A stretch of DNA of 47,396 nt, taken from a virus. Numbering within the stretch: the first letter of the stretch is position 1; each line of letters opens with the position of its first letter. The position numbers were made by a program, and so were the translations under genes. This document shows, piece after piece, positions 3,723-25,829 of the stretch. The notes under the pieces are model-generated. The model searched no databases, had not been told where the DNA came from, and saw nothing but the letters and a program-made list of their open reading frames with translations. The DNA is taken from positions 1-47,396 of IMG/VR virus record IMGVR_UViG_3300022539_000150; one strand, written 5' to 3'.

Positions 3723-3747
3723 AACTGCTCTTTTTTTGTTTTAGGGC

Positions 3748-3776: not shown

Positions 3777-3782
3777 ATATGT

Positions 3783-3901: not shown

Positions 3902-3913
3902 ATGTGTTATACT
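3885..3913 (+). promoter_or_regulatory. Promoter for the replication genes
   Basis: TTGACA (3885-3890), a 17-base spacer ending GATGTGT, and TATACT (3908-3913). The spacer is the most divergent of the class because it carries the right arm of the inverted repeat. It reads into the gene starting at 3941. Confidence 0.75.
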
Positions 3914-3940
3914 ATTTAGGGATAGAGAGGGGGTGATAGA

Positions 3941-4258
3941 GTGAATAATAAACCATATTTTGAAGTGCAAACAGTAGTATTGAAAGGCAATAAAAGAGTA
4001 GAACACTCGGAAAATTTAGATAGAACTAAGCTACCTTTTTATTGTCACTATTCACAAGATGGTGGAGCTACTAAGTATCTTGGAATAGTAGATTGGGTTA
4101 ATTCTAAGGTTGGCTACATTCTATTGAGACACACGAAACAGTATGTAGGAGAGCCTTTTGAGCCTAAGGGTGCGGTCGGCGGAAGATTAAAATTGAAAGA
4201 TTTAATCACGGCTTTCAATATTAATACAGTTAAAGTAAAAGTGATAGTTTATGAATAA
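3941..4258 (+). CDS. Unknown protein, 105 aa
   Basis: A 105-residue protein starting with GTG after a GAGAGGGGG site. It has a mixed charge profile without membrane segments. A central CHYSQDGGATKYLG stretch and a basic, valine-rich end (VKVKVIVYE) suggest a compact beta-rich fold. It is the first gene after the promoter at 3885 and precedes an OB-fold protein, so a DNA-replication or early regulatory role is possible. No family was recognised. Confidence 0.6.
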   Translation: MNNKPYFEVQTVVLKGNKRVEHSENLDRTKLPFYCHYSQDGGATKYLGIVDWVNSKVGYILLRHTKQYVGEPFEPKGAVGGRLKLKDLITAFNINTVKVKVIVYE

Positions 4259-4273
4259 AAGGGGGTGATGCAA

Positions 4274-5119: not shown

Positions 5120-5120
5120 C

Positions 5121-5822: not shown

Positions 5823-5823
5823 C

Positions 5824-5906
5824 TCCTATCTCGTAACGTGACGGCGTTAGGATTAGTAGTGTCGCATAGTAGAGGGAGCAGGTTGGGGAAGTCTGCCGAG
5901 ATAGGA
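5824..5906 (+). ncRNA. Structured RNA element in the helicase leader
   Basis: This gene-free interval has a perfect 10-bp closing stem TCCTATCTCG (5824-5833)/CGAGATAGGA (5897-5906). Inside are a hairpin TAACG/CGTTA (5834-5849) stacked directly on it and a GCAG/CTGC stem close to the 3' arm. The base composition is richer in G and C than the surroundings. It begins two bases after the initiator stop and ends 18 bases before the helicase start, next to its AAGGGGG site. It could be a cis-regulator of helicase translation, a small RNA or a protein-binding leader. No known riboswitch was recognised. Confidence 0.55.
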
Positions 5907-5924
5907 TAGAAAGGGGGTGTTGCC

Positions 5925-7211: not shown

Positions 7212-8173
7212 TGAATACAATAGTAAAAATGAAATTCGGAAGTCATTTATACGGAACAGATACGAAAGATTCTGATACTGATTATAAGGGTATATTTATG
7301 CCCACTAAAGAACAAATATTTTTAGGGAGAATACCAAAATGTTATTCAGAAAAAACAAAGGTTGGAGTAGGCAAAAATACTTCGGGAGATACAGATACAG
7401 AAGTCTATTCGTTACATTACTTTTTGGAATTGGCTTGTCAGGGGCAAACCGTTGCTATTGATATGCTTCACGCTCCTGATGATATGATTTTAGAAACATC
7501 AGATACTTGGAAAGCAATATGTCTCAATAAACATCTTTTCATAACAAAAGACATGCATGCTTTTGTAGGATATGCAATGAGACAAGCTTCTAAATATGGA
7601 ATTAAGGGGAGTAGGTTAGCCTCTGCTGGAAAAGTTATGGATTTCATTAATGATTTTGATACACAGAAGGGTAATGATATGAACAAGACAAGATTAAAGC
7701 AGGTTTGGGATAAACTACCACAAAGAGAACATATCCATAAATACGAGATAGGAAAGGACAGACTTAGGATTTATCAAGTATGTGGTAAAAAAATACAGGA
7801 GACTGCTACCTTGCGATATCTTTTTGATATAATGGTAACGTTTTATAATGCTTATGGTGCAAGAGCAAGATTAGCAGAAAAGAATGAAGGAATAGATTGG
7901 AAGGCAGTATCTCATGCTATAAGAGCCTCAATGCAGTTGATAGAACTCTATAAAGATGGAGAAATAAAATTTCCATTGGCACAAGCAGAATACTTGAAAG
8001 ATATCAAAGCAGGAAAAATAGATTACAAGAGCGAAGTTGCTCCTTTACTGGAAACTCTTATCGGAGAAGTAAAAGACTTAGCAGTCGCAAGCGACTATCC
8101 TGATAAAGTAGATAGAAAGTATTGGGAAAAATTTATAATGTTTGAGGTTGAAAAGATGTTATGGGGGTGTTAA
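7211..8173 (+). CDS. Pol-beta superfamily nucleotidyltransferase (RlaP/PF10127-like)
   Basis: A 320-residue protein beginning with the nucleotidyltransferase signature GSHLYGTDTKDSDTDYKG: Gly10-Ser11 and the metal-binding Asp22 and Asp24. It continues with helical segments and IDMLHAPDD. This pattern belongs to the predicted nucleotidyltransferase family often called RNA repair pathway DNA polymerase beta (PF10127). Family members are predicted to transfer nucleotides to RNA ends or proteins; the reaction is not established. It overlaps the helicase stop and is followed by an HD-domain gene two bases later. An RtcB ligase stands further down the same operon, which supports an RNA-end role. 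Confidence 0.8.
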   Translation: MNTIVKMKFGSHLYGTDTKDSDTDYKGIFMPTKEQIFLGRIPKCYSEKTKVGVGKNTSGDTDTEVYSLHYFLELACQGQTVAIDMLHAPDDMILETSDTWKAICLNKHLFITKDMHAFVGYAMRQASKYGIKGSRLASAGKVMDFINDFDTQKGNDMNKTRLKQVWDKLPQREHIHKYEIGKDRLRIYQVCGKKIQETATLRYLFDIMVTFYNAYGARARLAEKNEGIDWKAVSHAIRASMQLIELYKDGEIKFPLAQAEYLKDIKAGKIDYKSEVAPLLETLIGEVKDLAVASDYPDKVDRKYWEKFIMFEVEKMLWGC

Positions 8174-8174
8174 T

Positions 8175-8675
8175 ATGGAAGATTATTTTACAAAAAAGAA
8201 TATGAAACCAATTCTTGATGTATTACATGCTTTGAAAGGTATTGAACAGCAAGTAGAATATCACCCTGAAGGAGACGCATTGAAACATACTTATCAAGTA
8301 TTCAAGTGGGCGATAAGAGAAACAATGGACTTGGATTTGATTTTGGCGGTACTCTTGCATGATGTGGGGAAAGTGACTTACAGTAATCACCACACAAAGG
8401 ATAGTGTCAAGCTCATAGAAGGATTTTCGAGTTGTAAAACTGTATGGTTAGTAAAACATCACATGAGAATCTGGACATATTTAAAAGGAGAAATGCAGGG
8501 ATTAAAGAAATGTTTGGAGTTAGCAAACCACTGTTGGCTCCCTGATTTAATACAGTTGGCACGTTGGGATGCCAAAGGACGTAATCCACGTAGCCAATGT
8601 TACTTCACAGATGAACAGATAATAGAAATATTAAATAGAAAAGCAAGAGAACATTTTGATAAGGGGGTGATATAA
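8175..8675 (+). CDS. HD-domain phosphohydrolase
   Basis: A 166-residue protein with the HD-superfamily metal site: His38 (ALKHTYQVF), the HD pair His62-Asp63 (LLHDVGKV) and a distal helix with VKHHMRIW and ARWDAKGRNP. The last part resembles the HD domain found in some bacterial CCA-adding enzymes and small phage HD hydrolases. Such domains remove phosphate from nucleotides or cyclic phosphates from RNA ends. The start at 8175 follows GGGGGTG; the longer frame from 8142 would overlap the upstream coding sequence. It sits directly after the nucleotidyltransferase, so the pair may act as a split enzyme. That is inference. Confidence 0.75.
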   Translation: MEDYFTKKNMKPILDVLHALKGIEQQVEYHPEGDALKHTYQVFKWAIRETMDLDLILAVLLHDVGKVTYSNHHTKDSVKLIEGFSSCKTVWLVKHHMRIWTYLKGEMQGLKKCLELANHCWLPDLIQLARWDAKGRNPRSQCYFTDEQIIEILNRKAREHFDKGVI

Positions 8676-9050
8676 ATGGCTTATTTAGGAAAGCCAATAT
8701 TGGCGATAGATTTTGATGGGACAATAAGAGAGAGCAAAAGAGCTATTGATACAGAGAATAAATTAATGCCAAATTGCAAAAAGGTATTGAAAAAGTTATA
8801 TAATGAAGGGTATAGAATGATACTCTGGACTTGTAGAAGTAAAGCGTGGTTAGAAGAACCTATAAAACTCATGGAAAAATGGGATATTCTAAAATATTTT
8901 GAATGCATAAATGAGAATGTAAAGCAAGTTTATTGGTGGAATACAAAAAAGATCTATGCAGATGCCTATATAGATGATTTGAATTTGCAGGGGTTTCCTG
9001 GTTGGTTAAAGACTTATAAAATTTTGAAAAAGAGGTTCAAGAATGGTTAA
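8676..9050 (+). CDS. HAD-superfamily phosphatase
   Basis: A 124-residue minimal HAD protein. Motif I is AIDFDGTI (Asp12 nucleophile, Asp14), motif II is the Thr in ILWTCR (Thr52), and motif IV is YADAYIDDLN (Asp100, Asp101). No large cap domain is present, so it could reach bulky substrates such as nucleic acid 5' or 3' ends. Small phage HADs like this are annotated as hydrolases or polynucleotide-phosphatase-like. The ATG follows AAGGGGGTGA, and its end overlaps the next gene by eight bases. An RNA-end healing role is suggested only by the neighbouring RtcB and nucleotidyltransferase genes. Confidence 0.8.
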   Translation: MAYLGKPILAIDFDGTIRESKRAIDTENKLMPNCKKVLKKLYNEGYRMILWTCRSKAWLEEPIKLMEKWDILKYFECINENVKQVYWWNTKKIYADAYIDDLNLQGFPGWLKTYKILKKRFKNG

Positions 9051-9399
9051 AAAAATGCGTGAATTTGAAACAGGAGCAACGAGAGACATAGTAGAAGGTA
9101 AATTGGATTATGAAGGATTTTTTTCTCCTTTAGTGCTTGAAGAGTTTGCTAAATATATGGAAAAAAATAGACATACAGCACTTGGTGTGAGAAAATCAGA
9201 TAACTGGCAAAAAGGAATACCTTATGAAACTTATATGAAATCTTTATTCCGTCATTTTATGGCAGTATGGAAAGAACACAGGGGTATTAAAACAGAAGAT
9301 GGAATAATGAAAGCATTGATGGGTGTTATGTTTAATACAATGGGTTACGCTCACGAGCTATTGAAAGGAAGTGATAAGAATGAAGAAAAAGGACGTTAA
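9043..9399 (+). CDS. dATP/dGTP diphosphohydrolase-domain protein (PF18909-like)
   Basis: A 118-residue protein that opens with REFETGATRDIVEGKLDYEG and then has SPLVLEEFAKYME, NWQKGIPYETYMKSLFRHFMA and a C-terminal helix ending GYAHELL. This order matches the domain annotated in many phages as the dATP/dGTP diphosphohydrolase N-terminal domain (DUF5664-like), a helical MazG-like fold. Members adjust nucleotide pools, sometimes for modified DNA. No purZ-like gene is seen in the window, so 2-aminoadenine synthesis cannot be claimed. It overlaps both neighbours, so it is firmly in the operon. Confidence 0.7.
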   Translation: MVKKMREFETGATRDIVEGKLDYEGFFSPLVLEEFAKYMEKNRHTALGVRKSDNWQKGIPYETYMKSLFRHFMAVWKEHRGIKTEDGIMKALMGVMFNTMGYAHELLKGSDKNEEKGR

Positions 9400-9988
9400 A
9401 TGTAAGAAGTGTTCACACTATATACTTGGAGTAAAAGGGCTGGGTGTTCAATGCTCTCTTACTCAGAGGAAACAAAACGAAATTCCTCTTTCTAATATGA
9501 TTGAGGATACTGCTCCTTCGTGGTGTCCAAAAGTTAGACGAATAGGTGGTCGTCCTAAGAAGAAGCATACTGCAAGATGGATATTAAAGAAACGATTAGA
9601 TGTTTTGTGGGCTCAAGCAGTAAAGGTAATTGCTCAAAATAGATGTGAGATTGTGACAGATAAAAGATGTCAGAATGTAAATGGATTAGGAAAAGGGCAC
9701 GGACTAAATGCTCATCATCTTATTGGAAGATCGAATTTCAATGTCAGGTGGGACGTTGATAATGGCGTAGCGTTGTGTGTTAAACATCACGTCTTTTCAA
9801 TATGGAGTGCTCATAAAAATCCTTTTTGGTTTTTACAAAAGATGATTGACATTAGAGGCAAAGCATGGTATACTATGATACAGGATAGAGCACTAAAGAA
9901 TGGTGGAATTGCAAAGCATTCAATGGAAGAACTTGAAAGAATAGAAATGCAATTAATTAAAATAATAAAGAAAGAGGGTGGTTGCTAA
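9380..9988 (+). CDS. HNH/NinG-like nuclease with N-terminal zinc finger
   Basis: A 202-residue protein with three parts. The N-terminal zinc-binding region is CKKCSHY...GVQCS...WCPK. A basic linker follows (GGRPKKKHTARW). The HNH-type core has CEIVTDKRCQN, HGLNAHHLIGRSN, VRWDVDNGVALCVKHH and FSIWSAHKNP. The AHHLIGRSN and ALCVKHH segments resemble HNH proteins such as lambda NinG and phage recombination nucleases. A role in recombination or DNA branch processing is more likely than homing because it is embedded in an operon. The ATG at 9380 lies inside the previous gene's end. A promoter for the next gene lies inside it at 9846-9874. Confidence 0.75.
   Translation: MKKKDVKCKKCSHYILGVKGLGVQCSLTQRKQNEIPLSNMIEDTAPSWCPKVRRIGGRPKKKHTARWILKKRLDVLWAQAVKVIAQNRCEIVTDKRCQNVNGLGKGHGLNAHHLIGRSNFNVRWDVDNGVALCVKHHVFSIWSAHKNPFWFLQKMIDIRGKAWYTMIQDRALKNGGIAKHSMEELERIEMQLIKIIKKEGGC
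9846..9874 (+). promoter_or_regulatory. Promoter inside the HNH gene, upstream of rtcB
   Basis: TTGACA (9846-9851), a 17-base spacer TTAGAGGCAAAGCATGG and TATACT (9869-9874). It keeps the GGCAAAG and TG elements of the shared class and would give rtcB and the following genes their own transcript. Confidence 0.7.
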
Positions 9989-11163
9989 TGGAAAGAGTAA
10001 AATTTGATAAGAGAAATAATAGAATACCAATTAAGATGTGGTTAGATTATATAGAGAACGGAGCAATGTTACAAGCAGAGAACTTATCTAAGTTGTTTTT
10101 TTCTTATAGACAAATAGTGCTACTTCCTGACTGTCATCAGGGCTATGGTATGCCTATTGGTACGGTGTTAGCTACTCATGCTTATATCATACCTAATGCA
10201 GTAGGCGTTGACATAGGTTGCGGAATGAGGGCAATCAAATTAAATGTAGTGCAATTAAAGAAAGAAAAAGTTAAGGAGTTAATGAGTGAAATCAGAGAGG
10301 TAATTCCTGTCGGTTTCAAACATAATGAAGAAGCAAATTCTGACGCATTACCGCCATTGCATTGGAACTTACTGACAAAGGATGTCATACCTGATGAATT
10401 GCAAAGTGCCGCACAACAATTAGGAACTCTTGGTGGTGGCAATCATTTCATTGAGTTTCAGGTGGGTGAGGATAATAGCTTGTGGATAATGCTACACTCT
10501 GGAAGCAGGAACTTGGGGTATAAAGTTGCGTCACATTATAATCAATTAGCCAAAGACTTAAATGCTAAATGGCATACGCAGGTGGCTCCGAGTTATGACT
10601 TAGCTTTCTTACCAGTTGATAGTAAAGAGGGGCAAGATTACTTAAAAGAAATGAATTATTGTGTGGAGTTTGCAGAAGCCAATAGAAGGGTTATGATGGA
10701 TAAGATTAAAAATATCTTGGATAAGCACTTGCTTAGTGCATTTATAGAGGAAGATATAGATGTCATACATAACTACGTAAGACAGGAAAACCATTTTGGT
10801 AAGAATGTATGGGTGCATAGAAAGGGTGCTATAAGTGCGAGACTTGGAGAGATAGGGATAATTCCTGGCAGTCAGGGGAGTTTTAGTTACATAACTAAAG
10901 GGCTTGGTAATCCTGAAAGTTTTACTTCCTGTTCTCATGGTGCAGGGAGAAAAATGTCAAGGTCTAAAGCTAAAGCAGAATTAGACTTAGCAGAAGAACA
11001 GCATAAGCTCGAATTAAAGGGAGTAATCCATAGCGTGAGAACAGTCAGTCAGTTAGATGAAGCTCCTTCTGCTTACAAGAACATAGATAAAGTAATGGAA
11101 TTACAGAAAGATCTTTGTGAAATAAAAGAACGATTAATACCAATAGGGGTGATAAAAGGATGA
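9988..11163 (+). CDS. rtcB: RNA ligase RtcB
   Basis: A 391-residue protein, close to the roughly 400 of bacterial RtcB. The metal and GTP-binding blocks are in order: VGVDIGCGM (Asp75, Cys78), GGGNHFIEF (His153), LHSGSRNLG (His170), HNYVRQENHFG (His261), VHRKGAISA and SCSHGAGR with the guanylylated His317. RtcB joins RNA 3'-phosphate or 2',3'-cyclic phosphate ends to 5'-OH ends, as left by anticodon nucleases and other toxins. It starts at the ATG after GAGGGTGG, has its own upstream promoter, and ends in an ATGA overlap. Together with the phage tRNAs it suggests repair of tRNAs cut by host defences. Confidence 0.93.
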   Translation: MERVKFDKRNNRIPIKMWLDYIENGAMLQAENLSKLFFSYRQIVLLPDCHQGYGMPIGTVLATHAYIIPNAVGVDIGCGMRAIKLNVVQLKKEKVKELMSEIREVIPVGFKHNEEANSDALPPLHWNLLTKDVIPDELQSAAQQLGTLGGGNHFIEFQVGEDNSLWIMLHSGSRNLGYKVASHYNQLAKDLNAKWHTQVAPSYDLAFLPVDSKEGQDYLKEMNYCVEFAEANRRVMMDKIKNILDKHLLSAFIEEDIDVIHNYVRQENHFGKNVWVHRKGAISARLGEIGIIPGSQGSFSYITKGLGNPESFTSCSHGAGRKMSRSKAKAELDLAEEQHKLELKGVIHSVRTVSQLDEAPSAYKNIDKVMELQKDLCEIKERLIPIGVIKG

Positions 11164-11315
11164 CATTTTTATATGATTTAACGTGGGTTCAATGTACAGG
11201 TCTGTTCTGGTTTACATTTAAGGTTGTTATGGTCGGATTAGTAATAGATAGCTTCATTGATTTGTATAAATTAATATACATAGCTTATAAGGGGGTGATA
11301 GGATGGGTGAAATAG
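11160..11315 (+). CDS. Small membrane protein, 51 aa
   Basis: A 51-residue frame overlapping the rtcB stop by ATGA and running 13 bases into the next gene. It has an aromatic N-terminal half (LFWFTFKVVMVGLVI) forming one clear hydrophobic helix, then a polar turn and a second weaker helix. No family was recognised. Tight coupling on both sides supports it as a real gene. Confidence 0.5.
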   Translation: MTFLYDLTWVQCTGLFWFTFKVVMVGLVIDSFIDLYKLIYIAYKGVIGWVK

Positions 11316-11782
11316 TAATTAGCGAAGCACAGAAAACACATAATATTATTGTTGCAATAAAAAGCAATATACACAAAGATTTTATGTCTCTTGCTGTTTG
11401 CTTGAAGGCAGTAAAAACGAATGCATACTATTTAGAGTTAGATTTTTCGTCATTTGAGGAATACTGTGCTCAACCTGATGTTGATTTGACAGTCAATAGA
11501 TGTAATAAACTCATTAGGATATATGATAGGTGGATCGAGGATTTTGGATATACAGTAGAAGAAATCGCAGGAACAGATACGGAATGTTTAGATATTGCAC
11601 AGTCGCAGGCGAGTGAGGAGAACAAAGAGGAATGGTTAGAGAGGGCAAAACTATTGTCTCGTGCAGACTTGAGAGCATTAACGCCTGGCTCACAGCATAG
11701 AGCTCCAATGGTGATTTGTCCTTATTGTGAACATATTTTTGATGTTAGTAGAAATATATTCAAAGGGGGTGGTAGAAAATGA
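11303..11782 (+). CDS. Unknown protein with C-terminal zinc-binding-like tail, 159 aa
   Basis: A 159-residue soluble protein starting after AAGGGGGTGA. The N-terminal helical region has LAVCLKAVKTNAYYLELDFS, SFEEYCAQPDVDLT and NRCNKLIRIYDRW, resembling the helix-turn-helix part of phage proteins related to DUF3102 or ParB-like adaptors. The C-terminus has one CPYC plus histidine, a half zinc ribbon. The combination suggests a DNA-binding regulator, but I did not recognise a named family. Its stop overlaps the next start in ATGA. Confidence 0.6.
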   Translation: MGEIVISEAQKTHNIIVAIKSNIHKDFMSLAVCLKAVKTNAYYLELDFSSFEEYCAQPDVDLTVNRCNKLIRIYDRWIEDFGYTVEEIAGTDTECLDIAQSQASEENKEEWLERAKLLSRADLRALTPGSQHRAPMVICPYCEHIFDVSRNIFKGGGRK

Positions 11783-12009
11783 GTAAAATAATCAAATACA
11801 ATCATCACGGAACAGAAGTCAGTGTATTGGAAAAAAATAAGGGTAAGCATAGAAAAAATTGTTTATGTTGGATTTGTAAGTTATTTATTCCCAATGACAG
11901 AGAGTTGAATTGTAAGATATCCAATGAATTATTTGCTATTTGTGTGACATATAACGTAACTACTCCTGTTTGGGAATGTGCAAAATTTGTAGAGAAGGGG
12001 ATGGTATAA
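11779..12009 (+). CDS. Small cysteine-rich protein, 76 aa
   Basis: A 76-residue protein with CLCWIC and further cysteines (CKI, ICVTY, WECAKF), likely to hold a metal. The pattern GKHRKNCLCWICKLF is of a type seen in small phage proteins next to regulators, but no function is known to me. It is coupled by ATGA to the gene before and by TAATG to the gene after. Confidence 0.6.
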   Translation: MSKIIKYNHHGTEVSVLEKNKGKHRKNCLCWICKLFIPNDRELNCKISNELFAICVTYNVTTPVWECAKFVEKGMV

Positions 12010-15060: not shown

Positions 15061-15070
15061 ACACAAAAAA

Positions 15071-15102
15071 AATACCCTGCAATATCAAAATTGCAGGGTA
15101 TT
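15071..15102. terminator. Bidirectional terminator of the amidoligase operon
   Basis: A 13-bp perfect stem AATACCCTGCAAT/ATTGCAGGGTATT with a 6-base loop and T-runs on both strands. It ends leftward transcripts from the amidotransferase gene and insulates the origin. Confidence 0.9.
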
Positions 15103-15116
15103 TTTCTTCCTATTCC

Positions 15117-15929
15117 TTATTCTATTTCATAGATTGAATGGAAACAGTTTTCACAAAGATTTTCTTCGATATCCCAGAAATAATATACTTCTTTCCTGGT
15201 GTTACAATATGCACAACAAGCACCACTAACCCTAATTTTATCGGTTTCGGATAATAATTTCTGCCTTTTTGCTTCTTCGATTGTCAGGTTAGATTTTTTG
15301 TCTTTGCTATTCCAGGGGATATAATAATAATCATCATAGTATCTTTGTAAGTATTCAGTATTATATTTATAGGTTAGGTTTGAATAGTATATTCCTTTTT
15401 CCCTTTCAAAATCTCCTATCATAAAAAAGTTACCTGATTTATTCATTATTATTAGCTTGTCGGTTGCTAAGATAGTTTTAATTAACTTTCTTATTCCTTT
15501 CGATTTAAAAAGGTTTCTGTTAATCTCCCTGTCGGCTAAAATGTGGGCTAAAACCTTACTATCGTTTGTTTTTTGATCGTCAACTAAAGAAATTATTATT
15601 CCGTTATGGGCTAAGATATTCTTTTCTGTTATACTCTCGCTTTCGTTCATTTCTTTACAGTCTTTTGTGATAATAAAAGGGTGGGCGTTTTCAATGCTAA
15701 CCCTTCCATGCGTAGCAATCCTAAAGTGATAAATAACATTATCTTCTTTTCTTACGCTATGTCTGATATGATTTATAAAAGGCTCTATTTTCATAAATTT
15801 ATTAATTATTATTTTATTATCCCTTTGAATTGCTATTCCCATACCGTCAGCATTGTTTGAAAAGCAGTTCCTTAAAATTTTTTCCTTTGGTGGTTTTACT
15901 CCTTTGGGTTTAAAAACAATTATACACAT
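15117..15929 (-). CDS. Class II glutamine amidotransferase (Ntn hydrolase) with zinc finger
   Basis: A 270-residue protein beginning MCII, so Cys2 becomes the N-terminal nucleophile once methionine is removed. Further class II marks are NADGMG (26-31), HFRIATHG (68-75), NAHPF (81-85) and AHNG (107-110). These domains release ammonia from glutamine, or cleave amides as Ntn peptidases. The C-terminal 40 residues carry a CxxC...CxxC zinc finger (CAYC, CENC) that could dock a partner. It lies 16 bases after the amidoligase gene in the same operon, so ammonia transfer or peptide processing for that ligase is likely. The zinc finger fusion and the phage setting are unusual. Confidence 0.8.
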   Translation of the reverse strand: MCIIVFKPKGVKPPKEKILRNCFSNNADGMGIAIQRDNKIIINKFMKIEPFINHIRHSVRKEDNVIYHFRIATHGRVSIENAHPFIITKDCKEMNESESITEKNILAHNGIIISLVDDQKTNDSKVLAHILADREINRNLFKSKGIRKLIKTILATDKLIIMNKSGNFFMIGDFEREKGIYYSNLTYKYNTEYLQRYYDDYYYIPWNSKDKKSNLTIEEAKRQKLLSETDKIRVSGACCAYCNTRKEVYYFWDIEENLCENCFHSIYEIE

Positions 15930-15945
15930 ATATTTTTTTCTCCTT

Positions 15946-17538
15946 TTAATTATTTTTATTTTTGATTATAAAGATATAATGTTTATTCTCTCTTTTTGCA
16001 AGGGCTTTTGTTATCAGGCGGTGAATTTTCTCTGTTTCCCAATCTCGATTCTTGGTGTCTATGCTTATCACACTATTAGTCCTACCTGTTCTTGTAAATT
16101 CTAGTGTACCGTAAATATTATTATTCCTGGTTCTCCCTGCTCTCTTGTTGGCTTTTTTCATTAGCTTTTCGTCAAGTTGGTTTTTCTTTTCCCTTTCTTT
16201 CCTAATCTTGTCTATATCTACTCCTAAAGCTGTGGCGAATTCTTTTCTATTTCTGATATTTAGATTTATATTTTCCCTTTGAATCTCAAAAGTAAAACCG
16301 TACTCAATAAAAAAATCTAAAATCATTTTTCGCTTTTGTGCGTTGTAATGTTTGTTATACATTACTATTTTCTCAAAATTAATCGGTAGATAGCAATTAT
16401 CTCTTAGGAAATAGACATCATTTTGATAGTTAATTATATAATCTTCAAAATCATCAAAATAATACTCCAATTTATTTAATTCTTTCCCTTTCAAAAATTC
16501 TTTAATATTGGAATTTCCCATTAAAGTTAGAAGGTCTTTTCTCTCTACATTACTTTCAAGTATTGTTCCTTGTCTTGGTATATTGTTAAGAGGGCAATAT
16601 AGAAGGGTCTTTTTTTCTAAGTATTTTAATAACTTATGGTATTTCTTTGATTGTTTCATAAAAGCTAAGAATGAAAACCATAATTGTTTTTTAGTTGCCT
16701 TGATAAAAAATACAAGTGAATAACTTTTAACAAAATAGGCAAGGGCTTCCGTTATATCAAGGGTGGCATTAAAGCGGTCTATATCAAGAGTTCCTCTGAA
16801 TATACGGAGTTCTATCGTGGTAGGATTTCCGAAATATACACATCTATAATGATCGTACCACTCCTCAAGTTGTGCTTTCTTTTTATCTTTGGATATTCTT
16901 CTTGTTTCTTCTGCATTTACTTTATTACAATAGTTTGTCTTTGTCCTTTTTGAAAAGCGTTTCATTACAGAGAAATTTTTATCAAAAAATATGTTAAATT
17001 TCAAAAAATCTTCTGGCTTAAACCATTTTTTTGATATGTGGATATGTAGTCCGCATCTATTATTTTTGTACGAGGTGAATCCGTCAGCTTTTAATGTTTC
17101 AAGCAGTTGCTTCCACTTAAAAATCCTCTTATGATATTTAACCGATTGCGGGTGGGTTACAATCTCCATTCCATGATTATTGAGGCTTCCATCGTATTTG
17201 ATATAACAGGGGTACGATTTCATAATACCATAAGCATAATCCTGTAAATAACCGTCGCTGTTGCTGTCGTCGTCTTCATCATCATAATATTCATCGGTGT
17301 CGTCGTTTGCTTCTACTTCAAGCTCAATTCCTAAGAAAAGAGGGTTCTTCTCGAATGACATTTTACAAAATATTGGCTTCGGTTTATAATCATAGTGAAA
17401 TAGTAGGTGGTTTTCGTACTTACCCAGCCAACAATCCAGGCAATAATAACAATCTCCGCTTTCAAGGGCGTATCTTTCATCAATTTTCTTCTTGCAACCT
17501 TCACAGGTTAATTTATTAACTTTTTTTTCTGTGTTCAA
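15946..17538 (-). CDS. Amidoligase (COOH-NH2 ligase, PF12224-like) with N-terminal zinc finger
   Basis: A 530-residue protein. The N-terminus has a treble-clef-like zinc finger (Cys12, Cys15, Cys30-33-36). The amidoligase core follows, of the glutamine-synthetase/GCS fold: FLGIELEVEAND (69-79), an acidic loop, KYDGSLNNHGMEIVTHP (114-130), RCGLHIHIS (161-169) and TIELRIFRGTL (241-251). These carry the expected acidic and histidine metal/ATP ligands. Such enzymes make amide bonds using ATP; the substrate is unknown. The C-terminal 250 residues are helical, basic and unassigned. Start is TTG after AAAGGAG, overlapping the upstream stop. With the amidotransferase and lipoprotein it suggests modification of a peptide or cell-envelope group. 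Confidence 0.8.
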   Translation of the reverse strand: MNTEKKVNKLTCEGCKKKIDERYALESGDCYYCLDCWLGKYENHLLFHYDYKPKPIFCKMSFEKNPLFLGIELEVEANDDTDEYYDDEDDDSNSDGYLQDYAYGIMKSYPCYIKYDGSLNNHGMEIVTHPQSVKYHKRIFKWKQLLETLKADGFTSYKNNRCGLHIHISKKWFKPEDFLKFNIFFDKNFSVMKRFSKRTKTNYCNKVNAEETRRISKDKKKAQLEEWYDHYRCVYFGNPTTIELRIFRGTLDIDRFNATLDITEALAYFVKSYSLVFFIKATKKQLWFSFLAFMKQSKKYHKLLKYLEKKTLLYCPLNNIPRQGTILESNVERKDLLTLMGNSNIKEFLKGKELNKLEYYFDDFEDYIINYQNDVYFLRDNCYLPINFEKIVMYNKHYNAQKRKMILDFFIEYGFTFEIQRENINLNIRNRKEFATALGVDIDKIRKEREKKNQLDEKLMKKANKRAGRTRNNNIYGTLEFTRTGRTNSVISIDTKNRDWETEKIHRLITKALAKRENKHYIFIIKNKNN

Positions 17539-17711
17539 TGTGCGAATCTCCTTTTCATTTTTTTATTTTTATAGATTAGTTTCACTAAATATTTATACTC
17601 CTTTCTTTCTATTCTTCCCCTAAGATAGTTAAATTTGAAAAGTCTTAGGGCTTGAGATATTTTGATTTTCTCAAAATCCATTTTCCTCAAACTATTAAAA
17701 AAATATTTCAT
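17535..17711 (-). CDS. Small basic protein, 58 aa
   Basis: A 58-residue frame with an AAGGAAGGAG site, very rich in lysine and arginine (NSLRKMDFEKIKISQALRLF, then KLIYKNKKMKRRFAH). Its stop overlaps the TTG start of the amidoligase, so the two are translationally coupled. It might be a substrate or accessory of the ligase, or a nucleic-acid binder. No family was recognised. Confidence 0.5.
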   Translation of the reverse strand: MKYFFNSLRKMDFEKIKISQALRLFKFNYLRGRIERKEYKYLVKLIYKNKKMKRRFAH

Positions 17712-17730
17712 TTTTTTTACTCCTTCCTTT

Positions 17731-18186
17731 TTAATAATTGAAAAAGATAGTTCCGTTTTTATTCCTAAGTTTTGTTACTGTCTTGTCGTGTTCTTTGTCG
17801 GCTTTTTCTTTCCTTTTTTGTAATAACTTCTTTGCTCTTTCGTGTAAGGCTTTTTCTTCCATATAGTTGATTTCGTCAAGTGTACTTTCAAGGGATATTT
17901 CAACAATGCGATTTACTTCGGTTTCAATTATAAAATCCATATATCCAATAATCTCTTTCAGAGGCTTGAATATATCCGCTGTGTCGTTATAATCAAAATC
18001 GTATATATGGGTATTTATTCCGTTTGTTACAAGGTCGGCTTTAAATTCTACTATTGCTTCAATGGCTCGGTCAGTTTGTTTCATTAAGCTGTCTTTTGCT
18101 CGGTCTCTTGGTTCTTTTACAAGTTTCTTCAAAAAATCAATTTGCTTTTGTTTTTTTGATTTTATCAATACTATCTTATTATCCAT
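17731..18186 (-). CDS. Unknown helical protein, 151 aa
   Basis: A 151-residue soluble protein with a lysine-rich N-terminus, a central part (DFDYNDTADIFKPLKEIIGY) and a coiled-coil C-terminal half (EEKALHERAKKLLQKRKEKA). It starts after GAAGGAG and overlaps the upstream gene by eight bases. No family was recognised; the operon position suggests a component of the amidoligase module. Confidence 0.55.
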   Translation of the reverse strand: MDNKIVLIKSKKQKQIDFLKKLVKEPRDRAKDSLMKQTDRAIEAIVEFKADLVTNGINTHIYDFDYNDTADIFKPLKEIIGYMDFIIETEVNRIVEISLESTLDEINYMEEKALHERAKKLLQKRKEKADKEHDKTVTKLRNKNGTIFFNY

Positions 18187-18460
18187 TATATTCTAAAAAT
18201 CTCCTTCCTTCCTCTTTTTCTAAGGATTTTAATCCTTTTATTCTCCCTTCTTCGATACATTTCATTGTATTAATCATTTCCTGAAATAAGTCTATTTGTT
18301 CTTTTCGAGTGAAATTAATATTTTCGTTGCTTAGTGTTCCAGAAAAAGATAAATTTCTGAAAGTGAATTTCCATTTAAAGGTTGTAGTCTTTTTGGTTCT
18401 CTGTGGGCTATTTGTCAGGGTCTTAGTTACTTCGATATTCTGAAATAATACTACTGACAT
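18179..18460 (-). CDS. Unknown protein, 93 aa
   Basis: A 93-residue protein with a beta-like N-terminal half (VVLFQNIEVTKTLTN, then TTFKWKFTFRNLSFSGTLS) and a helical C-terminus. It starts after AAAAGGAGTGA. No motif was recognised. Confidence 0.5.
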   Translation of the reverse strand: MSVVLFQNIEVTKTLTNSPQRTKKTTTFKWKFTFRNLSFSGTLSNENINFTRKEQIDLFQEMINTMKCIEEGRIKGLKSLEKEEGRRFLEYNG

Positions 18461-18479
18461 TTATTTCAATCACTCCTTT

Positions 18480-18554
18480 TTAATTTTTTTTAATATAGTA
18501 TATTGAGTAAGTTATAATTGTTAGGCATACTATAAACACAATACATTTTTCCAT
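18480..18554 (-). CDS. Possible 24-aa transmembrane peptide
   Basis: A very short frame with an AAAGGAG site ten bases before the ATG encodes MEKCIVFIVCLTIITYSIYY and a short basic end: one membrane helix. Its stop is followed directly by the next ribosome site. Site strength and operon spacing support it, but the length keeps confidence low. Confidence 0.35.
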   Translation of the reverse strand: MEKCIVFIVCLTIITYSIYYIKKN

Positions 18555-18648
18555 TACTTTTATACTCCTTTCAATTTATTTCGTATCAATTTAATGGGCT
18601 TAATAAACCTCTTTAATGTTGCTAAAATTAAAAAGGTCTATAAACCTA

Positions 18649-18861
18649 TTAGGATTTATTTAATAAATTAAGTTTGTTCTTTGTTTCTATCAAGTTGTTT
18701 TCAAGTCTTAGATAGGTTGTCATTAAATTGTAATTACTAAAGATATCCTTTAGGCTTCTGACTGATATAAAGGAATGATATTCCCTTCTCGCTTTTTCTA
18801 CTTTCTTAATTGCTCTAATTTTTGCAGTTAAAAACTTAAATAAATAAATTTTTATTGGCAT
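18649..18861 (-). CDS. Small basic helical protein, 70 aa
   Basis: A 70-residue protein starting after GAAAGGAGA. It has a hydrophobic/basic first helix (IKIYLFKFLTAKIRAIKKVE) and a coiled-coil-like C-terminus (LRLENNLIETKNKLNLLN). No family was recognised. The 90 bases downstream (18562-18648) hold no further gene that I can support. Confidence 0.5.
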   Translation of the reverse strand: MPIKIYLFKFLTAKIRAIKKVEKARREYHSFISVRSLKDIFSNYNLMTTYLRLENNLIETKNKLNLLNKS

Positions 18862-18888
18862 TTAGTTGGTCTCCTTTCATTGTTAGTT

Positions 18889-19191
18889 TCAATCAAAATA
18901 TCCTTTTTCATCTAACCATTTAATAATTCTTTGCGTTGCTTTTTCAGAGTTTGTTTTATTACTATTTTCGGTGTGCTTGAAGATATTACGGATTATTCTC
19001 GTTATAGGTAAAAACTGTATTCTTTCTACTTCCTTACATTTTACCATATAACATTTTTTACAATAATAATAAAACTTGTTCTTGCTCTCCTGAAAGGTTA
19101 TGAATTTCGGCGGTTTCCCTCCCCTATTGCCTAAGATATATTCGTTAGTGAGTTCCTGTTTCTTTCCGCAGTTTTTGCATTTAATTTCCAT
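18889..19191 (-). CDS. Zinc-ribbon protein, 100 aa
   Basis: A 100-residue protein with CKNCGKK at residues 4-10 and YYYCKKCYMVKC near residues 42-53, making a four-cysteine zinc ribbon, followed by a basic helical tail. Zinc fingers also occur in the amidoligase and amidotransferase of the same operon. It may bind nucleic acid or bridge proteins of the module; this is inferred. Confidence 0.55.
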   Translation of the reverse strand: MEIKCKNCGKKQELTNEYILGNRGGKPPKFITFQESKNKFYYYCKKCYMVKCKEVERIQFLPITRIIRNIFKHTENSNKTNSEKATQRIIKWLDEKGYFD

Positions 19192-19214
19192 TTATAAAAT
19201 CTCCTTTCTTTTTA

Positions 19215-19724
19215 TTAGATTTTATTATATCCTATTTCAATAACATTCATTCCGTAATCATAAACGATATACTTTATCCATTCTCTTTCCATTAAGAAAT
19301 AACTATCATATATAACAATATACTCAAAATTTTCTGCCTGTATGAAAAGATAATATTGGTTATTTGAAAAGTTATATCTTCCATTTTCTTTGTAAACTGC
19401 AAGAGAATGGGAATAAGGGGTATTTTTGTAATATATTTTTATCTGATAAGTTTCGTAATTATGATAATTGGCAAAAAATACTCCCCAATTAGAGAAGTCG
19501 TCGCAATCTCCCATTTTGCATAAATATAACTGATATGGATTTATAGGTTTTAAAATATTAGGTCTATAAACAAAATTATCTAACATATATTGACAAGCTT
19601 TTCTCGGAGTATTTAATTCTTCAATTAAGGCAAGAAATTCGGCATCATCAGGCAGAACGAAAATATGAATACATCCACTTAGAAAGAATATAGACAGAAT
19701 CAAAAAAAACAGTATCTTCTTCAT
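19215..19724 (-). CDS. Lipoprotein with transglutaminase-like domain
   Basis: A 169-residue protein with a lipoprotein signal: basic start MKKI, a hydrophobic run and lipobox LSGC (Cys18 would be lipidated). The mature part carries GDCDDFSNWG (Cys74), YSHSLAVY (His106) and YNFSNNQYY. These match the Cys-His-Asn/Asp layout of transglutaminase-like peptidases. It is therefore an exported, membrane-anchored enzyme that could cut or cross-link peptides outside the cytoplasm. It is the first gene of the leftward operon that ends with the amidoligase and amidotransferase, behind a structured leader. A superinfection, wall-modifying or peptide-processing role is possible. Confidence 0.7.
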   Translation of the reverse strand: MKKILFFLILSIFFLSGCIHIFVLPDDAEFLALIEELNTPRKACQYMLDNFVYRPNILKPINPYQLYLCKMGDCDDFSNWGVFFANYHNYETYQIKIYYKNTPYSHSLAVYKENGRYNFSNNQYYLFIQAENFEYIVIYDSYFLMEREWIKYIVYDYGMNVIEIGYNKI

Positions 19725-19748
19725 TGTTTTATTCTCCTTTCTTTTTAT

Positions 19749-19838
19749 TTAAGGTATAAGTATAACCTTAATAAACCCATCTATGGCGTTATCAGTTCAA
19801 GTAAGGGAATTTCCATTCTATCCCTTTAATAGATGGGT
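19749..19838 (-). promoter_or_regulatory. Structured leader of the lipoprotein/amidoligase operon
   Basis: In the leader RNA a 10-bp stem ACCCATCTAT (19838-19829)/ATAGATGGGT (19784-19775) encloses a second stem AAGGGA/TCCCTT (19826-19803). It is followed by a 7-bp hairpin TTAAGGT/ACCTTAA (19771-19749) just before the ribosome site. This two-part layout resembles a riboswitch-like or protein-responsive translational switch. No known class was recognised. Confidence 0.45.
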
Positions 19839-20009
19839 CTATAAAGCTATAAGTATTATTCTTATTCGCTTTATATCTCCTTTGCTTTTCATTGGGTCGG
19901 TCAGAGATAATAGGTCGCTGTGCCTTACTATCTCCTTTAATTTTTCACTTTTCAAGTTCCAGTGGGCTTTGGCGTTTTTATGGTTTCGTTGGTTGCTCTT
20001 TTTTCTCTT

Positions 20010-20039
20010 ATTTTATCATAGATTTAATATACTTGTCAA
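20010..20039 (-). promoter_or_regulatory. Leftward promoter of the amidoligase operon
   Basis: On the minus strand, TTGACA (20039-20034), an 18-base spacer and TAAAAT (20015-20010). The spacer lacks the AAAGTGTG core of the other promoters. About 280 bases of leader separate it from the lipoprotein gene. Confidence 0.55.
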
Positions 20040-20463
20040 GGGTTTTAGCGATTTATTTTCATTTATTTTCACTTATTTAAAAGGGTCGAGGGCGGTTGCT
20101 ATTTGATATTAGTTATTATATCCGTATCATCTTAGTATAGGATAGATACATTACATAAGTAATACTAATTGATTTAACTAATTTTCTTTTATTATTCCCT
20201 GCGTTAGCAGGGTCTTATATATCCTTTATTCCTCTATTCCGCTATTCGGGATTTATTCAAAATATCACTAAATAAGGGGTAGCACTATCTTATTATCTTA
20301 TTCCTGCCTTAATTTAATATTAAATTTCCCTGCATTAAGATTAGTATTAGGATAGTAATTTAAGATCCATTTTAAATAGTTCTAATTACATTAAGTGAGC
20401 ATTATCCCTATATATCCTTATATTTGCATATATGAACAATCCTTCATTTGTGGGCGGGGGTTT

Positions 20464-20698
20464 GAGTGAGCGACCAGAGGGAGCGAACGGAATCTTTGTC
20501 CACGAAGTGGACACCTTAAAGCTTTTGTTATCCTTTTAATATACAGTATCTTAATTTAAATTAAAAGAAGGAGCACGGAGTGTCTCCTAATTTTAATTTA
20601 ATATCAAACACATTATACTCTTATCTATCACGAGAAGGGTATGGGTACCTCTCCTTTACTTTTTTTTTAAGGAATCCCTTGACTGGTCGCATTCACTC
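20464..20698. repeat. Inverted repeat pair around a hairpin cluster
   Basis: GAGTGAGCGACCAG (20464-20477) and the inverted copy CTGGTCGCATTCACTC (20683-20698) match except for a two-base insertion. They enclose both the GTCCAC hairpin and the 46-base compound hairpin. They could be ends of a small mobile element, such as a MITE-like remnant, or arms of a long RNA structure. Confidence 0.45.
20556..20601. repeat. 46-base compound hairpin
   Basis: An 11-bp outer stem TTAAATTAAAA/TTTTAATTTAA, a one-step internal mismatch, a 5-bp stem AGGAG/CTCCT and a CAC/GTG tip. No clear U-tract follows, so it is not a typical terminator. Confidence 0.6.
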
Positions 20699-20882
20699 CT
20701 AATGTAAAAGAATAAAAAAATTTGGCAAATATATATAAAAATATAAGAATTTACGATTTTTGAAACCGTTGTAAAATAAGGGCGAAATGTCCCTCGTCCA
20801 TGGGGTGGATAGATTTATTCTCCTGCATTAAAAGTTTTTGTGAAAATAATTAAAAAAAAATGAAGATAATTATAAAAAAGAC

Positions 20883-20911
20883 TTGACAAATGGAACGAAA
20901 TGTGCTATACT
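20883..20911 (+). promoter_or_regulatory. Rightward promoter, shared spacer class
   Basis: TTGACA (20883-20888), a 17-base spacer AATGGAACGAAATGTGC and TATACT (20906-20911). It serves the small genes from 21086 on and perhaps the tRNA array. The 170-base leader includes a TCGCC/GGCGA hairpin (21016-21037). Confidence 0.85.
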
Positions 20912-21085
20912 ATATATGAAACGAGAATGAGGAAATCGGATAGAATATTTGATGATTAAGTGGCACTCCGAGTGAAGGAATTAAAATAAAAATAGTAAAA
21001 GGATAGATAATATTATCGCCCTACTCCAGCGTGGCGAAAAGTTTGAGGCAATGTGGGAAACATTAAGAATAATAAAGAGGAAATA

Positions 21086-24252: not shown

Positions 24253-24326
24253 ACCGATGTAGTTCAATGGTAGAACGTCTGCTTGATGAGCGGAAGATCT
24301 TTGTTCAACTCAAGGTATCGGTACCA
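24253..24326 (+). tRNA. trnI(GAT): tRNA-Ile (GAT)
   Basis: 74 bases: acceptor ACCGATG/TATCGGT, D-stem GTTC/GAAC, anticodon arm TCTGC-TTGATGA-GCGGA giving GAT, T-arm with TTCAACT, and encoded ACCA. Confidence 0.85.
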
Positions 24327-24330
24327 TTTT

Positions 24331-24418
24331 AGGGGTAGTGTCCGAGTCGTTTGAGGTAATCGTAAGTACCCACCAAGCGGAACGCCATACATGTTAACCT
24401 CTGCTGATGGCACCCCTA
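24331..24418 (+). ncRNA. tRNA-sized element without T-arm
   Basis: An acceptor-like stem AGGGGT/ACCCCT and a Ser-like D-arm sequence (GTCCGAGTCGTTTGAGG) are present in 88 bases. There is no TTCRA T-loop and no CCA. Internal pairings include GGTA/TACC around an 8-base loop ATCGTAAG and GCCAT/ATGGC next to the acceptor. It may be a decayed class II tRNA or a different RNA using tRNA processing. Confidence 0.45.
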
Positions 24419-24425
24419 AATTTAT

Positions 24426-24501
24426 TGCGAAGTATTATAATTGGTAATGAACCTGACTGTTAATCAGGGATATGCAGGTTCGATGCCTGCCTTCGCAGCC
24501 A
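24426..24501 (+). tRNA. trnN(GTT): tRNA-Asn (GTT)
   Basis: 76 bases: perfect acceptor TGCGAAG/CTTCGCA, anticodon arm CCTGA-CTGTTAA-TCAGG giving GTT, T-arm GCAGG-TTCGATG-CCTGC and encoded GCCA. Confidence 0.93.
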
Positions 24502-24503
24502 TA

Positions 24504-24570
24504 TTGGCGGTAAATTCCCATGATAGTGTGGTACGTGACGGTATATACTTATAAGTCGTACTCCGCCAAG
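24504..24570 (+). ncRNA. Short tRNA-like element (degenerate)
   Basis: A perfect 7-bp acceptor-like stem TTGGCGG/CCGCCAA closes only 66 bases. Inside is GTACG/CGTAC and the palindrome ACTTATAAGT, with no normal T-loop or anticodon arm and no CCA. It is spaced like a tRNA between tRNA-Asn and tRNA-Gln. Confidence 0.4.
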
Positions 24571-24574
24571 TTAT

Positions 24575-24648
24575 TGTAGAGTCGTTTAACGGTAGGATGC
24601 AAGGATTTGACCCTTGAGACCACAGTTCAACTCTGTGCTCTATAGCCA
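24575..24648 (+). tRNA. trnQ(TTG): tRNA-Gln (TTG)
   Basis: 74 bases: acceptor TGTAGAG/CTCTATA, anticodon arm CAAGG-ATTTGAC-CCTTG giving TTG, T-arm CACAG-TTCAACT-CTGTG and encoded GCCA. Confidence 0.9.
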
Positions 24649-24654
24649 TTTTAA

Positions 24655-24729
24655 GCCTGTATAGTATAATGGTATTATAAGGGTGTTGTATACCTTAGAT
24701 GACAGTTCGATTCTGGTCTATGGGCTCCA
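24655..24729 (+). tRNA. trnT(TGT): tRNA-Thr (TGT)
   Basis: 75 bases: acceptor GCCTGTA/TATGGGC with G-T pairs, anticodon arm AGGGT-GTTGTAT-ACCTT giving TGT, T-loop TTCGATT with one extra base in the 3' half of the T-stem, and encoded TCCA. Confidence 0.8.
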
Positions 24730-24745
24730 TTTAAAAGGAATAAGA

Positions 24746-24934
24746 ATGAAAAGGTTTGGTCATTGTTTGCAATGTAAAAGGCTTTTACCACTTAAATATT
24801 TAAGTAGAATTGAGTATTATAATGGGCATATTGTGCCAGGAGCATTTCATCACGAGTTATTATGTGATGCTTGTATGGAAAAAGCCGAAGAAGTTGTAAT
24901 TGCTGCAAAAAGTTTAGAGGAGATTTTAAAATGA
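24746..24934 (+). CDS. Small zinc-finger protein in the tRNA array, 62 aa
   Basis: A 62-residue protein with HCLQCKR near its start and LLCDACMEK in the second half, a four-cysteine zinc finger. The rest is helical (AEEVVIAAKSLEEILK). The ATG at 24746 follows AAAAGGAAT just after tRNA-Thr. The longer frame from 24683 would run through that tRNA and is rejected. It is coupled by ATGA to the next gene. Function is unknown; RNA binding is possible. Confidence 0.6.
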   Translation: MKRFGHCLQCKRLLPLKYLSRIEYYNGHIVPGAFHHELLCDACMEKAEEVVIAAKSLEEILK

Positions 24935-25218
24935 AAAAAATATTAATAATAGCAGTTGTTATTTTGAGTCTTTTAGCAATTCCTATAACAGCAGGGGAAG
25001 TTACAGCAGTATCGGTAGTAAATGATTTTATTAACTCAGTTAGACGAATGACAGAAGATGAGTTCATTTTATTACAGGAACGAGTAACTCCACAGGTAGT
25101 CCAGAATGCTGTAAGTTTTGTGGCACATTGGCAATCATTAGTAATTGCAAATGCAGAGGCGAATAATATAATTATAGAAAGAAAAGATAAAGCAAGAGCG
25201 GGTATAGTACAACGGTAG
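24931..25218 (+). CDS. Secreted or periplasmic small protein, 95 aa
   Basis: A 95-residue protein with a signal peptide: MKKILIIAVVILSLLAIP followed by TAGE, a likely cleavage region near residue 22. The mature part is helical and acidic, with EDEFILLQERVTPQ and AHWQSLVIANAEAN. Its last 21 bases, including the stop codon, lie inside tRNA-Gly, so processing of that tRNA would cut the message. It is odd cargo for a tRNA array. An envelope role such as superinfection exclusion can be imagined but is not shown. Confidence 0.6.
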   Translation: MKKILIIAVVILSLLAIPITAGEVTAVSVVNDFINSVRRMTEDEFILLQERVTPQVVQNAVSFVAHWQSLVIANAEANNIIIERKDKARAGIVQR

Positions 25219-25271
25219 TATTAGCGGTTTCCACCCGATAGATAAGAGTTCGACTCTCTTTATCTGCTCCA
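25198..25271 (+). tRNA. trnG(TCC): tRNA-Gly (TCC), overlapping a gene end
   Basis: 74 bases: acceptor GCGGGTA/TATCTGC with G-T pairs, D-stem GTAC/GTAT, anticodon arm AGCGG-TTTCCAC-CCGAT giving TCC, T-arm AAGAG-TTCGACT-CTCTT and encoded TCCA. It overlaps the 3' end of the upstream coding sequence. Confidence 0.85.
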
Positions 25272-25276
25272 TTTAT

Positions 25277-25351
25277 TGGGAAGTAACGCAGTCTGGTCAG
25301 CGTACTTGCTTTGGAAGCAAGGAGTCGGTGGTTCGAATCCTACTTTCTCCG
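25277..25351 (+). tRNA. trnP(TGG): tRNA-Pro (TGG), weak stems
   Basis: A perfect anticodon arm CTTGC-TTTGGAA-GCAAG gives TGG. The D-arm ACGC/GCGT and T-loop TTCGAAT are clear. The T-stem GGTGG/CCTAC has mismatches, the acceptor relies on G-T pairs with an open first pair, and CCA is not encoded. Confidence 0.75.
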
Positions 25352-25362
25352 TAAATCAATAT

Positions 25363-25433
25363 CGGCGTATAGCTTAATGCAAAGCACCTGCCTGTCACGC
25401 AGGAAGATATCAGTTCATTTCTGATTACGTCGG
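25363..25433 (+). tRNA. trnD(GTC): tRNA-Asp (GTC), no encoded CCA
   Basis: 71 bases: acceptor CGGCGTA/TACGTCG, anticodon arm CCTGC-CTGTCAC-GCAGG giving GTC, and T-arm ATCAG-TTCATTT-CTGAT. The 3' end reads GCTG, so CCA must be added by an enzyme. Confidence 0.85.
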
Positions 25434-25439
25434 CTGTAA

Positions 25440-25488
25440 TGGTAGTGAAATACAGCAAAAGCTGGTGAGTCTGTTGGCTCCGCTACCA
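25440..25488 (+). ncRNA. Mini tRNA-like element, about 49 nt
   Basis: The stem TGGTAG/CTACCA closes 49 bases with a tetraloop hairpin CAGC-AAAA-GCTG inside. It sits in tRNA spacing between tRNA-Asp and tRNA-Ala but has no anticodon arm or T-loop. It ends in an ACCA-like sequence. Confidence 0.4.
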
Positions 25489-25496
25489 GGCATTAT

Positions 25497-25572
25497 GGGC
25501 TGATAGTTTAACTGGGAAAACACCTGTTTTGCACGCAGGAATTAAGGGTTCGAGTCCCTTTCTGGTCCACCA
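25497..25572 (+). tRNA. trnA(TGC): tRNA-Ala (TGC)
   Basis: 76 bases: anticodon arm CCTGT-TTTGCAC-GCAGG giving TGC, D-stem GTTT/AAAC, T-arm AAGGG-TTCGAGT-CCCTT and an acceptor with several G-T pairs and one extra base. ACCA is encoded. Confidence 0.85.
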
Positions 25573-25575
25573 ATT

Positions 25576-25649
25576 GTGGTATTAGCTTATGGGTAAAGCC
25601 CCTCGCTGTGAACGAGGCGAAGGCGGTTCGAGTCTGCCATATCACCCCA
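25576..25649 (+). tRNA. trnH(GTG): tRNA-His (GTG)
   Basis: 74 bases: acceptor GTGGTAT/ATATCAC, D-stem GCTT/AAGC, anticodon arm CCTCG-CTGTGAA-CGAGG giving GTG, T-arm GGCGG-TTCGAGT-CTGCC and encoded CCCA. The base before G1 is T, so the -1 G normal for His tRNA is not encoded. Confidence 0.88.
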
Positions 25650-25658
25650 AATGTTAGA

Positions 25659-25680
25659 GTTAGCAGTCTCTACTGATAAC
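25659..25680 (+). other. Hairpin between tRNA-His and the next element
   Basis: GTTA-CAGT/ACTG-TAAC with one G-A mismatch and a CTCT loop. No gene is present between 25650 and 25698. Confidence 0.4.
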
Positions 25681-25697
25681 CAAAAAAACTGCACTAA

Positions 25698-25749
25698 TGG
25701 ATGTATAGGTGAGCAGATAATAGGTCTGCAAGTAAATCCTGTGCATCCA
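25698..25749 (+). ncRNA. Mini tRNA-like element, about 52 nt
   Basis: The closing stem TGGATG/CATCCA and an internal arm GCAGA-TAATAGG-TCTGC with a 7-base loop resemble an acceptor plus anticodon arm. The D- and T-arms are missing. The loop base at position 33 would be A, not T. The 3' end reads ACA after the discriminator. Confidence 0.4.
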
Positions 25750-25755
25750 ACACGT

Positions 25756-25829
25756 GAGCCAATGGTGTAACGACAGCATAAGACGCTCCAAACGTTTTGG
25801 CGTGGGTTAAACTCCTACTTGGTTTGCCA
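25756..25829 (+). tRNA. trnW(CCA): tRNA-Trp (CCA)
   Basis: 74 bases: acceptor GAGCCAA/TTGGTTT, D-stem GTGT/GCAT, anticodon arm AGACG-CTCCAAA-CGTTT giving CCA, T-arm GTGGG-TTAAACT-CCTAC with an unusual TTAAA loop, and encoded GCCA. It reads UGG, so TGA is not reassigned by this tRNA. Confidence 0.8.

Follow-up and report, generated by a model that had tools for sequence, protein, structure and literature searches.

Several groups of phages encode an amidoligase together with a glutamine amidotransferase. The two genes have been reported in LUZ24-like phages (PMC3890496) and in OM43 phages (PMC10580990), and the latter paper also cites phiEco32 and Marvin. In RIO-1-like podoviruses, the proposed role of a seven-gene cassette is to modify peptidoglycan and guard against superinfection (PMC5498523). 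A role of phage amidoligases in the envelope or in superinfection is already a published hypothesis (PMC5498523, PMC10580990), and no tested substrate for a phage amidoligase and amidotransferase is reported in this literature (PMC3890496, PMC10580990, PMC5498523). For phage-encoded lipoproteins, the Ltp-type proteins, which block other phages at the cell surface, set a precedent (PMC3952083). Here we analyze an operon that carries both an amidoligase–amidotransferase pair and a lipoprotein. It lies in IMG/VR virus record IMGVR_UViG_3300022539_000150, the whole of which (47,396 bases) is hereafter called the window; the window also encodes tailed-phage terminase, portal, and capsid proteins, a DnaB-like helicase, RtcB, and nine tRNAs. 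Our analysis favors a two-gene, glutamine-fed amide synthetase and an independent accessory lipoprotein that shares its operon, a reading that we consider somewhat probable.

The operon consists of nine tightly packed open reading frames (ORFs) on the minus strand, running from 19724 to 15117 between a promoter-like site (20039–20010) and a terminator (15105–15068). The original prediction, made from the sequence alone, described a leftward operon at 15117–19724, and every element that it named is present there. In transcriptional order, the genes encode the lipoprotein, a 100-aa Cys-rich protein, a 70-aa basic protein, a 24-aa membrane peptide, a 93-aa protein, a 151-aa protein, a 58-aa basic protein, the amidoligase, and the amidotransferase. 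A good ribosome-binding site precedes every ORF.

Amidoligase

The 530-aa amidoligase (15946–17538, minus strand) comprises an N-terminal zinc finger and a ligase domain of predicted glutamine-synthetase fold (approximately residues 63–315). It matches PF12224 with an E-value of 1.2e-9 and 38.9 bits, against a cut-off of 22 (37.3 bits in the genome search). A nearly invariant pattern, G70-x-E72-x-E74, D116, S118, E125, H165-x-H167, R198, and T241-x-E243-x-R245, is seen across 42–180 aligned relatives; the active-site residues of the ligase are intact. In glutamine synthetase, residues that handle metal and phosphate are the counterparts of the ExE, His, and ExR motifs. The proposed zinc finger is also borne out, as C12, C15, C33, and C36 are kept in at least 91% of the ~160–170 aligned relatives.

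A sequence search with the ligase profile matches only zinc-finger structures and does not reach the catalytic domain. Therefore, a fold search is needed. The AlphaFold2 model of the ligase, built from 42 sequences, is confident across most of residues 50–310. Foldseek alone gives no match with E < 0.001, and the superfamily becomes clear in a second look with VIA. Among solved structures, the model comes closest to YbdK-type GCS2, glutamine synthetase, glutamate–cysteine ligase, GmaS, and the pupylation enzyme Dop, with Z of 10.4–11.8. The best match is 1tt4 (Z 11.8), and the glutamine synthetase/GCS superfamily accounts for 50 of the 50 matches listed. The model confidently predicts a glutamine-synthetase/GCS2 fold for the ligase.

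Class II amidotransferase

The last gene of the operon (15117–15929, minus strand) encodes a 270-aa class II (N-terminal nucleophile, Ntn) glutamine amidotransferase (GATase) with a C-terminal CxxC...CxxC part. Its match to PF13230 is barely above the cut-off (E 2.4e-5, 23.9 versus 23 bits), and its family profile matches GlmS and PurF structures at 1e-9 to 1e-6. The protein starts with MCII, placing the catalytic cysteine right after the initiator methionine, and C2 is invariant in the GATase alignment. The GlmS-type glutaminase set (C2, R70, T73, H74, N109, G110, and D123) is complete, and the active site is intact in this partner as well. R70, T73, N109, and G110 are found in at least 99% of 161 aligned relatives, and H68 is also nearly invariant. 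The GATase alignment contains no stretch conserved enough to serve as a scan query. The zinc-finger-like cysteine part proposed for the amidotransferase is present, and such a C-terminal CxxC part recurs in most viral GATases (~50 of 74) and in very few bacterial ones.

Adjacency of ligase and amidotransferase

PF12224 ligases had been expected to associate with Ntn amidotransferases. We compare 80 viral and 80 bacterial contigs picked by the ligase motif alone; the viral ligases form 55 clusters at 70% identity. The ligase alignment served as query for the viral contigs, in which a scan with the single ligase protein had found nothing. A GATase lies on the same strand within 500 bp of the ligase in 74 of the 80 viral and 76 of the 80 bacterial loci, almost always downstream, and the median gap is 5 bp in viral and 0 bp in bacterial loci. 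Random placement within the same loci gives means of only ~9 and ~12, respectively. The next-best neighbor family is found at 16 of ~85 viral loci, and in bacteria it is a recombinase, at 40 of 80 loci. In an annotated phage collection, a ligase match is found in 24 records; 22 of these have a GATase match too, versus 35 of 50,697 records overall. The ligase and the GATase thus form an obligate-looking two-gene cassette, in agreement with the expected association.

The bacterial pair occurs mainly in Oscillospiraceae and other Clostridia. It is often found near resolvases and integrases, and therefore is probably mobile in bacteria. In one Clostridia metagenome-assembled genome, a single ORF (L123:1674-3845) joins the amidoligase and GATase domains; the fusion is weak evidence, because the GATase cysteine is internal and because of the nature of the source.

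Two further features of these loci may be recorded. A resolvase-type recombinase recurs at 40 of the 80 bacterial loci, ~2.3 kb downstream from where the ligase starts, and this points to a single family of mobile elements as carrier of the pair. Four viral loci (L011, L013, L031, and L072) have two amidoligases beside one GATase, which suggests a second, diverged ligase step.

Lipoprotein

The first gene of the operon (19215–19724, minus strand) encodes a putative 169-aa lipoprotein with a transglutaminase/papain-like Cys74–His106 motif. The sequence MKKILFFLILSIFFLSGC is visible, with lipobox FLSGC; the LPAM_1 match scores 17.2 bits, under the cut-off of 20. The protein carries GDC...H motifs. 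A Pfam scan returns no transglutaminase family match, and profile matches to CPR-C4 and LapG are weak (E 0.02–0.09). In the AlphaFold2 model (predicted local distance difference test, pLDDT, 66.6), C74 starts a helix (residues 74–87) and H106 lies in a strand (residues 105–113), while the third residue, for which an Asp or Asn is expected after the His, is unsure. The folds closest to the model are those of CPR-C4 and LapG, both transglutaminase-fold cysteine proteases, and a cross-linking transglutaminase role is therefore unproven. Of the lipid-anchored transglutaminase-like enzyme originally proposed, the lipobox and the GDC...H motifs are visible, but no Pfam transglutaminase family matches and the nearest folds are proteases rather than cross-linking transglutaminases.

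The sole relative of the lipoprotein in the viral collection is encoded at locus L091 (40% identity), in a phage that shares the virion gene order of the window at 24–52% identity. In that phage it is a lone gene, placed on the opposite strand and flanked by the counterparts of the tail genes at 37794–37922 and 37950–39014 of the window, with its own TTGACA-type site just upstream. Searches of the 42.9-kb L091 record, which may be incomplete, find no ligase or GATase. With its relative alone in a phage whose record shows neither partner, the lipoprotein acts like an accessory gene independent of the pair, and it is probably moron-like. No relatives of the lipoprotein, the Cys-rich protein, or the small proteins are found beside any viral or phage ligase examined.

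At the left end of the window, positions 138–629 encode a second transglutaminase/LapG-like protein, which has no lipobox and weak matches to LapG and Transglut_core. It has little in common with the lipoprotein beyond the GDC motif.

Proposed mechanism and alternatives

In the mechanism that we favor, the N-terminal cysteine of the GATase would hydrolyze glutamine and release ammonia. The zinc-finger-bearing, glutamine-synthetase-fold ligase would activate a carboxylate with ATP, and the ammonia, passed from the GATase to the ligase, would turn the activated carboxylate into an amide. The leading published guess for the acceptor is a peptide or precursor of the host cell wall, whose alteration would aid the phage or keep competitors out. 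The lipoprotein, with a predicted transglutaminase/papain-type cysteine-peptidase fold, would be an independent surface accessory protein that happens to lie in the operon and perhaps serves in superinfection exclusion.

Several points weigh against this account. The lipoprotein model is weak (pLDDT 66.6; template modeling score ~0.36). A single relative, from a record that could be fragmentary, carries the case for an independent lipoprotein. The ligase loci were sampled from the contigs that matched best and do not amount to a census. The window ligase is only ~30–35% identical to all other ligases, and its substrate could therefore differ. Finally, Dop, whose fold the ligase is predicted to share, hydrolyzes; the acceptor and even the amide-forming direction of the ligase are predicted and unproven.

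Instead of ammonia, the ligase might attach the amine of an amino acid or a peptide, in the manner of GCS or PafA, with the Ntn partner acting as an amidase or peptidase that edits or trims the product. Such a peptide-tagging or peptide-synthesis pair is possible but rather unlikely. The ligase fold is as near to YbdK, GCS, GmaS, and Dop/PafA as to glutamine synthetase, and the conserved zinc finger offers a possible binding site for a macromolecular target. However, the GlmS-type residues of the GATase (R70, T73, H74, N109, G110, and D123) better fit the supply of ammonia from glutamine, and no conserved tag-like small protein is found beside the pair in the viral and bacterial loci.

A broader proposal is that the pair is a compact mobile system, common to phages and Clostridia elements, that amidates or tags a macromolecule in infected cells. 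It would act on the side chains of proteins or on a peptide that the zinc finger holds, and would be a glutamine-fed counterpart of pupylation-type modification. We regard this as quite unlikely.

The original prediction read the operon as a complete pathway in which the ligase, the amidotransferase, and the lipid-anchored transglutaminase-like enzyme, located outside the membrane, make and attach amide bonds. All the genes do share a single operon with one promoter and one terminator. However, the gene set is conserved nowhere else among the loci examined, the one relative of the lipoprotein stands alone in another phage, and the nearest folds of the lipoprotein are proteases. Co-occurrence thus holds for the ligase and GATase, which are nearly always together, and fails for the full set, which is never seen elsewhere; with the lipoprotein and the small genes beside no other ligase found, we disfavor the complete pathway as very improbable. 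Also very improbable is modification of phage DNA bases by the pair, with amino-acid or amide hypermodification as a shield against restriction. Ligases that form amides have been proposed to act in phage base modification, and zinc fingers could touch nucleic acid, but no base hydroxylase, TET-like enzyme, thymidylate or dCMP hydroxymethylase, or glycosyltransferase is found among the window proteins scanned, which are not every ORF.

On the favored reading of an amide synthetase with an independent lipoprotein, the two genes by themselves would be the functional unit, with the zinc finger of the ligase conserved, which shows experimenters what to express. Phages and Clostridia mobile elements commonly carry the pair, and the lipoprotein can be studied apart from it.

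Operon layout and other window genes

The promoter-like site of the operon (20010–20039, minus strand) matches the sigma70 consensus, TTGACA-18-TAAAAT with TG, and its assignment is a consensus match only. At the other end, the operon is closed by an intrinsic terminator (15068–15105, minus strand) with a 16-pair stem and a T-run on the minus strand. As proposed, a zinc-ribbon-like protein and several tiny basic or membrane proteins lie between the lipoprotein and the ligase, all on the minus strand. The 100-aa Cys-rich (zinc-ribbon-like) protein (18889–19191) and the 70-aa basic protein (18649–18861) have no relatives found. The 24-aa putative membrane peptide (18480–18554), which has a good ribosome-binding site, is read from the sequence. 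The 58-aa basic protein (17535–17711) has a stop that overlaps the ligase start. The 93-aa protein (18179–18460) and the 151-aa protein with a Lys/Glu-rich C-terminal part (17731–18186) are defined by ORF and profile scans, and neither has a relative beside other ligases. The 151-aa protein gives the only match from defense-system profiles, to Cmr5; the match is weak and we judge it to be due to chance.

By eye, six promoter-like sites of the window (1076, 3748, 5763, 9846, 14686, and 20883) have in common TTGACA and a spacer core like GCAAAGTGTG. This core between the hexamers is possibly an operator or activator site. As originally noted, the operon promoter at 20039 lacks the core that the other phage promoters share; the 14837 site is likewise without it. 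The G+C content of the operon is 29.6%, versus 34.7–35.6% in the large blocks 1–12000 and 25800–47396. The low G+C content and the promoter without the shared core make it plausible that the operon is cargo; to that extent, the original view of it as separate cargo stands.

Upstream of the operon, ~1.3 kb of A+T-rich DNA without clear genes (19740–21050) separates divergent gene blocks and is possibly a replication or control region. Elsewhere in the window (7211–11163 and 24253–25829), an RNA-repair-like set comprises an RlaP-type nucleotidyltransferase, HD and HAD-like proteins, and RtcB, together with the nine tRNA genes; the set and the tRNAs perhaps counter host tRNA-cleaving defenses.

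Comparison with known systems

Like the Ltp-type superinfection-exclusion lipoproteins (PMC3952083), the window protein is a phage-encoded accessory product and a predicted surface lipoprotein, a likeness drawn at the level of description. In contrast to the Ltp type, it has a cysteine-peptidase-like motif.

The window operon resembles the peptidoglycan modification cassette of the phiEco32/LUZ24/RIO-1 type in carrying an amidoligase and a class II GATase in an early or accessory region (PMC5498523, PMC3890496). That cassette adds a second amidoligase, an ATP-grasp enzyme, and a gamma-glutamyl cyclotransferase, none of which is found among the operon proteins or the other window proteins scanned. 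The absence of these genes indicates that the window pair is a minimal form.

In Mycobacteriophage Marvin (gp105–gp106), other Mycobacterium phages, the Methylophilales phages MEP401/402, and Podoviridae ctgrD200, the amidoligase and the class II GATase are adjacent, share a strand, and follow the same order as in the window. Several ligases of this group have an N-terminal Cys-rich part, as does the window ligase. The pairs are ~20–30% identical to that of the window, and none is accompanied by a matching lipoprotein or other operon genes.

The mobile pairs of Clostridia, mainly Oscillospiraceae (L092–L171), give the highest-scoring matches to the window ligase among the loci compared. As in the window, a zinc-finger amidoligase is directly followed by the GATase (76 of 80 loci). 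However, their GATases are GlmS/PurF-like and nearly all lack the C-terminal CxxC part of the window GATase, and the pairs have resolvases or integrases nearby instead of belonging to phage early operons. The amidoligase–GATase pair is a widespread and already described kind, and the pair in the window is a new, divergent member of it.

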